From Antedon mediterranea (lineage: Eukaryota > Echinodermata > Crinoidea > Comatulida > Antedonidae), in NCBI RefSeq assembly GCF_964355755.1, contig NC_092670.1, forward strand, positions 2,939,001 through 3,003,000: a stretch of DNA of 64,000 nucleotides, given 5' to 3'. This document shows positions 47,903 through 52,997 of this stretch, piece after piece (position 1 is the stretch's first letter; each line of letters begins with the position of its first letter). A model generated the notes under the pieces. It saw only the letters and a program-made list of their open reading frames with translations, searched no databases and was not told the origin of the DNA. The position numbers were made by a program, and so were the translations under genes.

Positions 47903-48006
47903 GGATAAACAAGTATTGTTTTTAAGCTGTAGTATATCTTAGTATTTGTAATCTTAGGTGTTGGGTCTTAGCTTTCGTGATCTTAGGTCTTAGGGGGTCT
48001 TAGCTT
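47903..48006. repeat. 104-bp direct repeat flanking the LINE, left copy
   Basis: From GGATAAACAAGTATTG to GGGGGTCTTAGCTT, matching 52894-52997 base for base except three substitutions. The LINE lies exactly between the two copies, so this is read as an unusually long target-site duplication. Confidence 0.8.
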
Positions 48007-48052
48007 GATGATATGCTGTGATTCAACGAGAGTAGACGTGTTTGAAGGAGCT

Positions 48053-48512
48053 CTCGCTAGCCATACTAGCCAAACCGGCGTTTCAACTAACTGTAACACA
48101 CCAAGCTGAACATACTTCATATTTCCCGCTGCAGATCAAATCACAGCGGCACACCTTAAGCCTAGACTCTGACTTTTTTTTTTCTTGGATCAATTTCGTA
48201 CGGATTACCTATCAATAATCATCATTACTTTACACAGTTGAATTTATTTGTGCGTTTACATGGACTATATACCAACACTTTGCCGAGGAAAGTAAGCTAT
48301 CGCTAGCCAAGCTAAACCAGCGATTAAAACACGCCAAGCTGAACAACTCATATTTCCCGCTGAGGGTAAGCTCATAACGGCACAACTTAAACATACCTCT
48401 GTCTATTTAGTATAATCTAGAACGGATTACCCATTAATAATCATCATTGATTTACACAGTTGAATTTGTGTGTAGTTATTTATGGACAATACCCCCATTT
48501 TACTGAGGAATG
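48053..48512 (+). promoter_or_regulatory. LINE 5' UTR: two tandem monomers of about 210-245 bp
   Basis: Monomer 1 (about 48053-48297) and monomer 2 (about 48301-48512) share CGCTAGCCA, CACGCCAAGCTGAAC-like, CATATTTCCCGCTG, CGGATTACC, AATAATCATCATT and TTTACACAGTTGAATTTGTG-like blocks in the same order. Tandem 5' monomers act as promoters in some LINEs such as mouse L1; a promoter role here is inferred. Confidence 0.7.
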
Positions 48513-48542
48513 TTTCATAAAATAGTGAATGGTCTATAGCAG

Positions 48543-49385
48543 ATGGCTATTAACAATTGGAATACCCAAGACTACTATAAAATGATTGTCAGTATAATTA
48601 TAAATACCATTGTTCTCGTACCAATTGCATTCAAGCTACTTATTATAGCCGGCGATATAGAAACAAATCCGGGTCCTATAGAAACCAGACAAACAACAAT
48701 TAAAGAATCAATGGGAATGGAACCTTCATTGAAAGATGTTTTGAAACAACTTAACGATATGAATACAGTTTTAAACGATAAAATGGATAGGATAGCTTCT
48801 GATTTCGCTTCAATTAAAGGAGATATGTCGAAAGGATTTGACAGGCTAACTAAAAAAATAACTGATTTGGAAGAAGAAAATATAAGACTAAAAAACACAA
48901 ACAAAGTTATAACTACACAACTAGATAAACTAGAAGCTGAAAGTCGTCGTAATAACATCATTATTTATGATATCCCTGAAGATGATAGAAATGAAACGTG
49001 GCTTGACTGCGAACGAAAGGTAAAGGATTATATAACAACAAATTTAGAAATCGAAGAGGTCGCTTTCGAGAGAGCGCATAGATTGCACAGCAAAAGTAAC
49101 CCACGACCAATCATAGCAAAACTTACTAGCTACAAACAAAAAGATGAAATAATGTCCAAAAATAGAGCACTCAAAAGGAAAATGACTGGAAATAAATCAA
49201 AAATTAACATGGGTGAAGATTATACTTTCAGAGTCCGTAAAATTAGAAAAGGCCTACAACCAAGGATACAACAAGCAATCAAAAACAACGATCGTTTTCG
49301 GCTCAGATATGATAAGCTGTTTATAGGCGACGAAGTATATACATTCAACGTAGAAGACAACAAAATCATAAACCTCACAAAATAG
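48543..49385 (+). CDS. LINE ORF1: 2A leader, coiled coil, L1-like RNA-binding protein
   Basis: 280 residues from ATG at 48543. Residues 14-36 are hydrophobic (MIVSIIINTIVLVPIAFKLL). Residues 37-45 are GDIETNPGP, the canonical D-x-E-x-N-P-G-P 2A motif, so the ribosome should skip between Gly44 and Pro45 and release a 44-residue leader. Residues about 55-138 form a heptad-rich coiled coil (LKDVLKQLNDMN to LDKLEAESRRNN). RRNNIIIYDIPED then opens an RRM-like domain, with ERAHRLHS, PIIAKL and a basic C-terminal domain like L1 ORF1p. Such proteins trimerise and coat element RNA. The frame ends at UAG (49383-49385) and ORF2 continues in the same frame. Confidence 0.9.
   Translation: MAINNWNTQDYYKMIVSIIINTIVLVPIAFKLLIIAGDIETNPGPIETRQTTIKESMGMEPSLKDVLKQLNDMNTVLNDKMDRIASDFASIKGDMSKGFDRLTKKITDLEEENIRLKNTNKVITTQLDKLEAESRRNNIIIYDIPEDDRNETWLDCERKVKDYITTNLEIEEVAFERAHRLHSKSNPRPIIAKLTSYKQKDEIMSKNRALKRKMTGNKSKINMGEDYTFRVRKIRKGLQPRIQQAIKNNDRFRLRYDKLFIGDEVYTFNVEDNKIINLTK
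48654..48677 (+). other. 2A ribosome-skipping site in ORF1
   Basis: Encodes DIETNPGP, matching the 2A consensus at every fixed position, preceded by a hydrophobic stretch as in active 2A peptides. 2A sequences are established in several non-LTR retrotransposons, including sea urchin elements. Activity of this copy is inferred. Confidence 0.85.
49383..49385 (+). other. in-frame UAG between ORF1 and ORF2 (candidate readthrough site)
   Basis: ORF1 (start 48543) and ORF2 are in the same frame with only this TAG between them; the next stop is at 52815. The following codons are GGT TTT GGC CGT GGT CCT. No ATG occurs in frame until after the first endonuclease motifs (about 49650). Readthrough would yield an ORF1-ORF2 fusion, as UAG readthrough does for gag-pol of murine leukaemia virus. 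Alternatives: non-AUG initiation, termination-reinitiation, or a point mutation. Confidence 0.75.
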
Positions 49386-52300
49386 GGTTTTGGCCGTGGT
49401 CCTAATGAAGAACAATCTGAACCATCTTTGAAAGTCACTAAACACATTGATTGTATTTCTTGGAATATTAATGGTATTAATAACAAATTCGCTGATTCTG
49501 ACTTTATTGAGTATGTTAACAAATTTGACATAATTTGTTTTAGTGAAACATGGGATAAATATCGGAACGATTACAATATTAAAGGTTTTACTTGCATATC
49601 AAAATTACCAGATAAAACAAGTCGACATGGAAGAAATAGTGGAGGCGTAATGGTATATTATAAATTAAATCTCGTCGTTGAAGAACTGCCAAGTGCATCG
49701 AATAACATTATTTGGTTAAGGATTACTCTATCCCCAACCGACACTGTTGTAATCGGTTTTTTGTATAGACCACCAAGTACATCCAGTTACGCGACAACTG
49801 ACTTTTTTGACATTTTATCTAACGAATATTTGCATTACAGCTCCCAAATATCAGACATAGTATATGTAGTTGGCGACTTTAATGGTAGAACTGGTTCGGA
49901 GGACGATTACATATCTGCTGACGAAAATGACACATGGAACAATAATCTTTTTCTGGAAGACAACATCCGGATTGAAAGTAGAACGAATTCTGATTGTATA
50001 CTAAATTGCTACGGTAAAGATATATTAGAATTTTGCAAAGAAACTGGTATGCGAATCACAAATGGTAGAATTGATAAAGAATCATCCAGTGGTTTTACAT
50101 TTATCAGTTCACAAGGTAAAAGTGTATGTGATTACCTTCTTACTAACTCAAACAACTTTAAACTAATATCTTATTTAAGAATTGATGACCGTGTTGAATC
50201 GGATCATATGCCAATTGCCTTTAGTATTCAATTCAAAGACAAAGAACACACCAAAATGATTGTCAATGAAGATGACACGTTTACCCAGAGTACGTTCAAA
50301 TGGTCCAACAGTTACATTAATGCATCCAAAGTCAGATGGGAACATGATATCATTGAAACTATTGATAATGATTTTATGAATGCTATCTCTCAAAATAAAA
50401 TTGATGAGGCAGTTTCACATTTATGTAAAATTTTTGAATACGTATGTAAAGGAATTAAGTATACACAAACAAGTAAATCTTCAACTTCTACAAAACGAAA
50501 CGAATGGTTTGATAAAGATTGTAAGAACCTTAAAATGCAGGTTAAACAATCATTAAAGAGATTTAGAATTATGCGCACTCAACCTTTTTTAAATAATTAT
50601 ATTCAGATAAAAAAGCAATATAAATCGCTATTAAAATGCAAAAAAAATAACTTTCATAAAAGAATACGCAAACAAATTATCGATTCACTCAATACAAAGG
50701 ATAGCAAAACGTTTTGGATGAAGTTGAAGACAAAACAGAAATTATCTTGCGAACTTTCTATTAATCAATGTTATATTCATTTTAAGAACCTATTTAAAAA
50801 CGATGAGTCTATTGGTAGCGATGAGTTGCCAAAAATCACAGAATGCCAACAGAATGAAGACGATGATTATTTAGACCACGACATAACGTTGGATGAAATA
50901 AAAAAAGCATTTAATTCTCAAAATAGTGGAAAAGCTCCCGGCATTGATGGAATGAATTTTGAATTTTTGCTAAACGCCCCCAACATTATTTTTGATATTT
51001 TAAAAATTCTTTTTAACGCCATATTTTTAGTTGAAAAATTTCCCAAACAATGGGCAACAAGCTTAATCGTTCCAATTTTTAAAAATGGAGATAAAAACAA
51101 ACCTGAAAATTATAGAGGTATTTCTTTAATTCCAATCCTAGGAAAAATATTTTTAAATATTCTTAATTCTAGGTTAACACAATTTACAAATAGTAAAAAG
51201 TTAATTCATGAGGAACAAGCAGGCTTTCGTAAGGGATATAGAACGACAGATAATATATTCATTTTAGATACCCTCATCTCTAAATACTTAGATAAAAAGC
51301 GGGGTAGGATTTTTGTTTGTTTTGTTGATCTTAAACGTGCCTTTGACTCTATAAATCATACACTTTTACTACATAAGTTGAAATGTATCGGTGTTTCAGG
51401 CAGAATGTTACACATAATAAATTCCTTATACCAAAACTTATCTGCTCATGTTAAAATTGGCAACAAACTTAGTCCATCTTTTAATTGTTCGATTGGAGTA
51501 CAACAAGGTTCTCCGTTGTCGTCTTTACTCTTTAATATTTACATTAATGATTTGAGTGGTATACTTAATCAGGTAAACGATTTCATTCAAATTGGAGATT
51601 GTCATATGAATCATCTTCTTTATGCAGATGACTTAGTGCTTGTTAGTGATACGGTGAAAGGTCTCCAAAAATTAATAAATAAACTTGAACTTTATTGTGA
51701 TACTTGGAAACTTACTGTAAACACTACACAATCCAAAATTATGGTTTTTAAAAATGGCCGCAATTTAAGGAACATTGAAAAATGGAAGTATAAAAATATT
51801 CAATTAAAAATTGTTAATTCGTATAATTATCTTGGTGTTATTTTTAGTTCAAATGGTGCATGGAACAACTCAATGCAACATAATCAACAAAAAGCAAATC
51901 AAAGTTTATTCTGCTTAAAATCATTCATTTATCGTAACTTATCTTTTCTTCCAATTAATACATGGAACCATATCTTTGATGTGAAAATACTTCCTATTTT
52001 AACGTATGGAAGCGAAATCTGGGGAATGTCAGATAGCACAAACATTATAGAAAAAACACGTACTAAATTTTGTAGATATTTATTGCAAGTTGGAAAAAAT
52101 GCACCAAATGCCGCTGTTACTTCTGAGTTAGGTAGATTACCACTTTCTGTGGATTGTTTAGTTACAGTTATAAGATTTTGGTTACACATTATTACTTTAG
52201 ATCATGACAGATTCATTTTTAAGTGTTATGAATTTCAACTTAGAAAAGTTAACCGTAATGAGAATTGTTGGGCACAACAGGTCAAACACTTACTCTTTTC

Positions 52301-52817
52301 TACTGGTTTTGGTTATATATGGTTACAACAATATGTTAATAGTAAAGGTTTATTTTTGAGAGAATTTAAGTTGCGCTTATGTGATATTGAAAAACAAAAA
52401 TGCATTCAAAAATTTAGTTTACATAATAAGTTAAGGCTCTTTTCTCTTTATAAAAAAGAAATATGTTTAAGTTATCACTTGACCAACATCATTAATTTTA
52501 AACAAAGAAGATTATTAACTAAGTTACGTTTAGGGATATTAGAGCTAGAAATTGAAAAGGGCAGATGGGAGGGTGTAGAAAGATATAAGAGAACGTGTAA
52601 ATTATGTAAAAAGAACATTGTTGAGGATGAATATCATTTTATTTTGCAATGCACATTTTACAATGATTTAAGAAAAAGTTTTATTCCAAGATTTATTCGT
52701 GTTTTTCCTTCTATTAATAAGCTTTGTTTATTACTTTCCAACACAAATTTTACTTATAATTTAGGAAAATACGTCTACTTTGCTTTTGAAAGAAGAAACC
52801 ATTATCTTAAGTTATAG
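49386..52817 (+). CDS. LINE ORF2: AP endonuclease and reverse transcriptase
   Basis: Open from the codon after UAG to the stop at 52815-52817 (1143 codons). The N-terminal APE-type endonuclease shows SWNINGI, FSETW, YRPPS, VVGDFNGRTG and SDHMPIAF, the usual catalytic residues. The RT follows: GKAPGIDGMNFEFL, NYRGISLIPILGKIF, EEQAGFRKGY, FVDLKRAFDSINH, QQGSPLSSLLFNIYINDL, LLYADDLVLVS (YADD at 51621-51632) and YNYLGVIFSSNGAW. Near the end CKLCKKNIVEDEYHFILQC forms a C-x2-C-x9-H-x4-C finger. The enzyme nicks target DNA and copies element RNA there. The lack of an early ATG implies recoding. No frameshift or stop is seen, which is rare for LINE copies. Confidence 0.92.
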   Translation, partial: GFGRGPNEEQSEPSLKVTKHIDCISWNINGINNKFADSDFIEYVNKFDIICFSETWDKYRNDYNIKGFTCISKLPDKTSRHGRNSGGVMVYYKLNLVVEELPSASNNIIWLRITLSPTDTVVIGFLYRPPSTSSYATTDFFDILSNEYLHYSSQISDIVYVVGDFNGRTGSEDDYISADENDTWNNNLFLEDNIRIESRTNSDCILNCYGKDILEFCKETGMRITNGRIDKESSSGFTFISSQGKSVCDYLLTNSNNFKLISYLRIDDRVESDHMPIAFSIQFKDKEHTKMIVNEDDTFTQSTFKWSNSYINASKVRWEHDIIETIDNDFMNAISQNKIDEAVSHLCKIFEYVCKGIKYTQTSKSSTSTKRNEWFDKDCKNLKMQVKQSLKRFRIMRTQPFLNNYIQIKKQYKSLLKCKKNNFHKRIRKQIIDSLNTKDSKTFWMKLKTKQKLSCELSINQCYIHFKNLFKNDESIGSDELPKITECQQNEDDDYLDHDITLDEIKKAFNSQNSGKAPGIDGMNFEFLLNAPNIIFDILKILFNAIFLVEKFPKQWATSLIVPIFKNGDKNKPENYRGISLIPILGKIFLNILNSRLTQFTNSKKLIHEEQAGFRKGYRTTDNIFILDTLISKYLDKKRGRIFVCFVDLKRAFDSINHTLLLHKLKCIGVSGRMLHIINSLYQNLSAHVKIGNKLSPSFNCSIGVQQGSPLSSLLFNIYINDLSGILNQVNDFIQIGDCHMNHLLYADDLVLVSDTVKGLQKLINKLELYCDTWKLTVNTTQSKIMVFKNGRNLRNIEKWKYKNIQLKIVNSYNYLGVIFSSNGAWNNSMQHNQQKANQSLFCLKSFIYRNLSFLPINTWNHIFDVKILPILTYGSEIWGMSDSTNIIEKTRTKFCRYLLQVGKNAPNAAVTSELGRLPLSVDCLVTVIRFWLHIITLDHDRFIFKCYEFQLRKVNRNENCWAQQVKHLLFSTGFGYIWLQQYVNSKGLFLREFKLRLCDIEKQKCIQKFSLHNKLRLFSLYKKEICLSYHLTNIINFKQRRLLTKLRLGILELEIEKGRWEGVERYKRTCKLCKKNIVEDEYHFILQCTFYNDLRKSFIPRFIRVFPSINKLCLLLSNTNFTYNLGKYVYFAFERRNHYLKL

Positions 52818-52893
52818 TTAATTTTTATTTGTTTGTATTAGGGCCAAAGGCCAATATATTTTGAACCAATAAATTCCCTGAAAAGGGAAAGAA

Positions 52894-52997
52894 GGATAAA
52901 CAAGTATTGTTTTTAAGCTGTAGTATATCTTAGAATTTGTAAGCTTAGGTCTTGGGTCTTAGCTTTCGTGATCTTAGGTCTTAGGGGGTCTTAGCTT
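52894..52997. repeat. 104-bp direct repeat flanking the LINE, right copy
   Basis: Matches 47903-48006 with three substitutions. It then runs straight into the last 26 bp of the Mutator-like element's right end, showing that the LINE landed inside that terminal repeat. Confidence 0.8.

Follow-up and report, generated by a model that had tools for sequence, protein, structure and literature searches.

A Conserved In-Frame UAG between ORF1 and ORF2 in a LINE Clade of the Crinoid Antedon mediterranea Suggests Expression of the Reverse Transcriptase by Readthrough

A Full-Length LINE with Two ORFs in One Frame

The window analyzed here is a stretch of 64,000 nucleotides from the crinoid Antedon mediterranea (contig NC_092670.1, positions 2,939,001 to 3,003,000), and all positions given below are those of the window. 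It contains a full-length LINE copy (table 1), and the matches of five other copies start between 48000 and 48057. The direct repeat around the element is long for a target-site duplication. Within the 5' UTR a unit of ~190 bp is present twice (48095–48290 and 48328–48510), the two being ~75% alike.

The limits of both reading frames as drawn by the first-pass annotation proved accurate: ORF1 ends at a TAG beyond which the same frame stays open to the stop of ORF2, and the earliest in-frame ATG (49650, codon 89) lies downstream of the WNINGI and SETW motifs. ORF2 combines an endonuclease and a reverse transcriptase (RT) domain, which places the window copy among the APE-type LINEs; its group is presumably CR1/L2. 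Comparison of ORF1 with Pfam returned nothing above the family cut-offs, and by inference this protein is L1-ORF1-like; the ORF1 of a related family (D, see below) has a weak Pfam match to Transposase_22, below the cut-off. The leader of 2A type proposed earlier was also recovered. Its motif, GDIETNPGP, agrees with the definition of 2A as D(V/I)ExNPGP (PMC4981915), and copies of two diverged families (C and D) carry GDIESNPGP.

Table 1. Features of the LINE Copy in the Window
Feature	Position	Strand	Remark
Full-length LINE copy, ~4.9 kb	48007..52893	+	104-bp direct repeat at both ends
Flanking direct repeat, 5' copy (target-site-duplication-like)	47903..48006	.	3 mismatches in 104
Flanking direct repeat, 3' copy	52894..52997	.	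3 mismatches in 104
ORF1, 280 aa	48543..49385	+	ATG at 48543, TAG 49383-49385
2A (StopGo) motif GDIETNPGP	48651..48677	+	Near ORF1 start, downstream of a hydrophobic stretch
In-frame UAG separating ORF1 and ORF2	49383..49385	+	UAG in 48/50 junction alignments
ORF2 frame without AUG start	49386..52817	+	1143 codons open, TAG 52815-52817
Endonuclease domain (Exo_endo_phos)	49455..50207	+	Pfam E 1.2e-12, ORF2 residues 24-274
Reverse transcriptase domain (RVT_1)	51093..51842	+	Pfam E 1.1e-34, ORF2 residues 570-819
Conserved 3' context GGUUUUGGCCGUGGUCC	49386..49402	+	Family comparison and pattern scan
Predicted long-range helix, proximal arm UGGUCCUAAUG	49397..49407	+	+15 to +25 from first stop base
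Predicted long-range helix, distal arm UAUUAGGGCCA in 3' UTR	52836..52846	+	Best junction partner over 48000-52900
3' UTR element GGGCCAAAGGCC	52841..52852	+	Similar elements in families B to E

Conservation of the UAG across Copies and Families

Every copy compared belongs to the same single genome. The comparison covered 64 loci (L001–L032, L053–L064, and L073–L092), 14 of which do not align across the junction (L017, L027–L032, L055, L059, L062, L063, L077, L081, and L087). Among the 50 aligned loci the junction stop is TAG in 48, TGA in one (L012), and TAT in one (L083); counted by family, UAG occupies the junction in 16 of about 17. The first-pass annotation had allowed for a chance mutation in a formerly single ORF, a reading that these counts refute within this genome and to which we attach practically no weight. 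The sense codon it proposed to look for at the stop in other copies turned up once in 50, as the TAT of L083, a copy truncated at the junction whose likeness to its family begins one base upstream of the stop.

The families were reached by several routes. A genome search with 49300–49600 gave 12 matches, 11 of them near-identical (family A), and at all 11 family A junctions found the TAG is followed by an identical 3' context. Genome searches using ORF1 and the start of ORF2 led to the diverged families B to E (one, three, eight, and two loci, respectively), with ~45% identity in the endonuclease and the ORF1–stop–ORF2 arrangement seen in A. Family B is a single decayed locus with TGA at its junction, and one locus of family E (L016) keeps the TAG and lacks the context motif. 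The genome was also scanned with the pattern TRRGGNNNNGGYCRNGGYCC, which would have shown TAA, TGA, or TGG as well; all 23 matches carry TAG and 22 of them lie in these LINEs, while the reversed pattern gave 6 matches. The match at L052 (G000:C9:7282399–7282418) is outside any recognized LINE and has no open frame of 70 codons.

An RT search yielded a further set, the K-type elements, which comprise ~12 families with mostly 33–36% RT identity. Eight of the first 12 K-type loci reach the junction, all eight with TAG and with ORF2 in the same frame, and 17 of a further 20 align across it (16 with TAG, plus L083). Of five K6 loci retrieved, four are truncated near the junction stop. UAG is far commoner at the junction than at the end of ORF2: where both ends could be compared (14 families), the stop of ORF2 itself is UAA in eight, UGA in four, and UAG in two, against UAG at 13 of the 14 junctions (Fisher p = 6.9e-5, an optimistic value since the families are related).

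One Clade, Two ORF1 Types

In the RT tree, 11 UAG families (A, B, C, D, K1, K2, K3, K5, K6, K7, and K9, with C partial) are separated by a branch of 100/100 support from 10 other LINEs of the same genome, which were taken from weak endonuclease hits and constitute a sample only. None of 12 ORF2 loci from other LINEs has a frame of at least 70 codons closed by a single stop and followed directly by an in-frame ORF2; at one of these 12, L037, the frame continues upstream without a stop. That locus (L037:3–2300) has a long frame (1945 aa) that begins in other RT-like sequence and passes uninterrupted into a LINE endonuclease.

The K-type ORF1 is of a different kind from that of the window copy. 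All three tested (L056, L057, and L058) match the GDSL esterase family of Pfam (E 3e-12, 2.4e-11, and 2.6e-8), and a zinc knuckle is above the cut-off in one of the three and below it in another. Within the set of PMC4120745, ORF1s with an esterase are confined to two vertebrate groups. As judged from the sequences, the in-frame UAG arrangement marks a single clade of LINEs, within which ORF1 is of two unrelated types.

Stop Context and the Leader Downstream

The bases around the stop are conserved along with it. Of 16 families, 15 have G at +4 and all have a purine at +5, G at +10, and G or C at +11, while C occupies +12 in 12 and A occupies −1 in 13; the 17th family, K12, keeps +4, +10, and +11 but differs at −1 (C) and +5 (T). 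Nearly all of these families present UAG followed by G and an in-frame extension, as expected of type III readthrough sites, which are defined by UAG-G together with a 3' structure (PMC3542737). According to the same paper, adenines upstream of the stop favor readthrough in yeast, and readthrough structures typically begin ~8 nt past the stop.

Between the UAG and the endonuclease lies a leader of 21–121 codons (11 families). Among 732 codons it has a single in-frame stop, in the decayed family B, whereas the two remaining frames contain 44 and 142, a pattern which indicates that coding constraint runs on through the junction stop. No ATG is conserved among the 11 leaders, and eight have no ATG at all; those in frame are at the 12th codon in K2 and K5 and at the 22nd in K3. 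The leader of family D (L019 and other loci) is Asn-rich, 104 codons long, in frame, and ATG-free.

The RNA fold search downstream of the UAG that the first-pass annotation had suggested gave a negative answer at the local scale, since the junctions of A, C, D, and E have no strong stem and no shared pseudoknot, just small GG/CC hairpins. A purely local GGCC signal was considered and dropped, as the K-type families are without GGCC.

Complementarity between the Junction and the 3' UTR

In several families, bases 6–12 nt past the UAG complement the start of the 3' UTR, the two arms being 3,439 nt apart in the window copy. Predicted helices reach 12–14 bp in four families, and the strong ones (A, D, K1, K2, K4, and K6) begin, as does that of K10, at +10 to +15 from the first stop base. 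In the A-type families the 3' UTR has GGGCC..GGCC elements soon after the ORF2 stop, and the bases flanking them complement those after the junction GGYCC (UAAU/AUUA in A, AAA/UUU in D). Family C has a UAG/CUA complement that needs a bulge, and in B and E one base matches beyond GGCCC while the second mismatches. The 3' UTR of family E, which served as a test of the prediction, passed it in part, with 7 bp as compared with 9 in D and 11 in A. Over their first 160 nt, 16 K-type 3' UTRs contain no element like GGGCC..GGCC. The K-type arms are wholly unlike the A-type ones in sequence and several are still complementary, without a mismatch over 13 nt (K6 and K2), 12 nt (K1 and K4), or 10 nt (K10).

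Across 15 families, junctions matched with their own 3' UTRs give a mean helix energy of −11.6 kcal/mol, as against −6.8 for 210 swapped pairs. By energy, no permutation among 100,000 is as strong for the 15 families together; with the ten K-type families alone 15 are, and with the five of A-type 1,740. By longest Watson–Crick run the corresponding numbers are 1, 5, and 16,550. For E and K1 the junction and the 3' end were taken from different copies, and the set omits K8, the 3' end of which was not found, and K12. In tblastn searches L099 and L100 had no convincing ORF2 tail, and the end found in L093 is doubtful.

In family A no part of the element outside 49340–49480 pairs better with the junction than the 3' UTR site does, and this site also ranks first in K1, K2, K4, K6, and K10, for which the scans spanned 1.5 to 3.7 kb; K1 has a second good site within ORF2 (−14.5 vs −16.6). 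In family D it ranks second, behind the junction's own palindrome. Judged one family at a time against dinucleotide shuffles, 8 of the 15 have no significant helix, its strength being reached by 28 (B), 81 (C), 35 (E), 195 (K3), 352 (K5), 272 (K7), 191 (K9), and 332 (K11) of 400 shuffles, and in K10 it is marginal (21/400). The predicted long-range pairing is strong in A, D, K1, K2, K4, and K6. Possible helices ~50 nt downstream in K5 and K9, chosen post hoc, are reached by 15 and 7 of 300 shuffles, respectively.

Comparison with Known Recoding Systems

LINEs with 2A sequences were reportedly described by Odon in 2013, and the window element resembles them in having a 2A motif near the ORF1 start together with an endonuclease and an RT; it differs in that its ORF2 would be governed by the UAG, predicted to be a second site of recoding. 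A close parallel for this second site is found among plant RNA viruses. In Tombusviridae a UAG-GGR context is accompanied by pairing over ~3.5 kb, with a 3' partner that belongs to a replication hairpin (PMC3542737, PMC3234231, PMC5893793). The crinoid elements share with the tombusvirus PRTE–DRTE system (PMC3234231, PMC5893793) a UAG followed by GG (families A, C, D, and E), a polymerase encoded as an in-frame extension past the UAG, a site just past the stop that complements a 3' UTR ~3.5 kb away and, in the A-type families, a 3' partner at a hairpin-like element. In contrast, we deal here with a DNA-copied LINE in which the large stem-loop past the stop was not found, and with a pairing that is predicted from sequence and confined to part of the families. 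The elements themselves are not members of the Tombusviridae, their ORF2 having LINE endonuclease and RT domains. The gammaretrovirus gag–pol junction likewise places UAG-G between an RNA-binding protein and an in-frame RT, but relies on a compact pseudoknot in an element with LTRs, whereas the crinoid LINEs have a predicted long-range pairing and no LTRs (PMC3542737, PMC5009743).

Among the matches listed from the open-licence PMC literature, no LINE with UAG readthrough is described, although an earlier mention is possible. As far as these sources go, this kind of recoding has its precedents in viruses, and what is new is the LINE setting.

Readthrough and Its Alternatives

We consider it probable (at roughly 0.8) that programmed type III readthrough of the UAG makes an ORF1–ORF2 fusion, probably with long-range stimulation of the tombusvirus kind. 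Most ribosomes would terminate at the UAG and release the ORF1 protein, while a minority would insert an amino acid there and go on to a fusion carrying the endonuclease and the RT; the 2A motif would free a short leader near the ORF1 start. The pairing between junction and 3' UTR would stimulate readthrough, perhaps in the way it does in tombusviruses. Recoding, which the first-pass annotation had put forward, is favored over the alternatives because the UAG, its 3' context, and a frame-keeping leader are all conserved, and to this extent the present comparison supports it, readthrough itself being inferred.

A separate start of ORF2, by termination-coupled reinitiation or by internal entry at a non-AUG codon near the stop, seems to us improbable. 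The third codon past the stop is GGN or GCN in 16/16 families, the type of codon at which some dicistrovirus entry sites begin, and the in-frame ATGs of K2 and K5 also speak for such a start. Furthermore, reinitiation is known in LINEs from SART1 and has been proposed for L1, where expression of ORF2 is linked to termination of ORF1 as it would be here (PMC5972666). Those elements, however, have an ORF2 AUG (PMC5972666), and none is conserved in the crinoid families, 8 of 11 leaders being ATG-free. Moreover, such a start requires neither a frame common to ORF1 and ORF2 nor UAG over UAA or UGA, and needs no leader in frame from the first codon past the UAG. The shared frame and the constant UAG are equally unaccounted for by a separate ORF2 mRNA, whether it came from a junction-proximal promoter or through splicing to an acceptor at UAG/G, which we rate as decidedly improbable. 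Its appeal comes from six K-type copies (L060, L077, L083, L084, L087, and L088) whose 5' ends fall between about −20 and +11 relative to the stop and whose flanks are mutually unlike, as reverse-transcribed short RNAs might give, from the fit of UAG/G to a minimal splice acceptor, and from Tca2 of Candida albicans, which has a promoter in its gag–pol junction (PMC2194720). Like the crinoid LINEs, Tca2 has a single stop to be bypassed, between gag and pol, but it is an LTR element with a UGA, and its junction alone gave no readthrough in yeast (PMC2194720). Splicing is further opposed by the lack of a polypyrimidine tract (longest pyrimidine run 2–4 in the 22 nt upstream, 16 families) and by those same unlike flanks, which argue against a single shared upstream exon. 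The selection had also been of loci that extend to where the ORF2 leader begins, so ends there are favored; the clustered K-type 5' ends could reflect RT pausing, a short ORF2 RNA, or the choice of loci.

The preference for UAG over UAA and UGA would be explained by A-to-I editing of the hepatitis delta virus kind, which would turn the templated UAG of some transcripts into UIG, read as tryptophan (PMC3542737). Since a LINE copies its own RNA, copies with TGG would then be expected; TGG occurs in none of the 50 junction alignments and in none of the 23 matches of a pattern that permits it, and we regard editing as highly improbable. A different question is whether readthrough is real and the pairing serves another end, such as RT recognition or RNA circularization in retrotransposition, or is partly due to chance. 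We think this unlikely, though of appreciable weight. The distal arm of the A-type families sits at a hairpin-like 3' element, of the kind recognized by LINE RTs, and a helix that is not significant alone in 8/15 families leaves room for chance. On the other hand, the proximal arms of A, D, K1, K2, K4, K6, and K10 start at +10 to +15, near the typical start of readthrough structures given above, as stimulation of readthrough would have it.

Implications for LINE Biology

How ORF2 of LINEs is translated, and how its protein comes to act in cis, is a long-standing question. It is about an even chance, in view of the sequence comparisons, that the whole clade, with both its ORF1 types, obtains its RT solely via UAG readthrough gated by 3' UTR pairing. 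If so, synthesis of RT would draw mainly on RNAs whose 3' end is intact, which would amount to a built-in quality control and to cis-preference, and retrotransposons would have converged with tombusviruses, which are plant RNA viruses. UAG readthrough would then join reinitiation among the strategies of LINEs, and would offer a mechanistic route to cis-preference.
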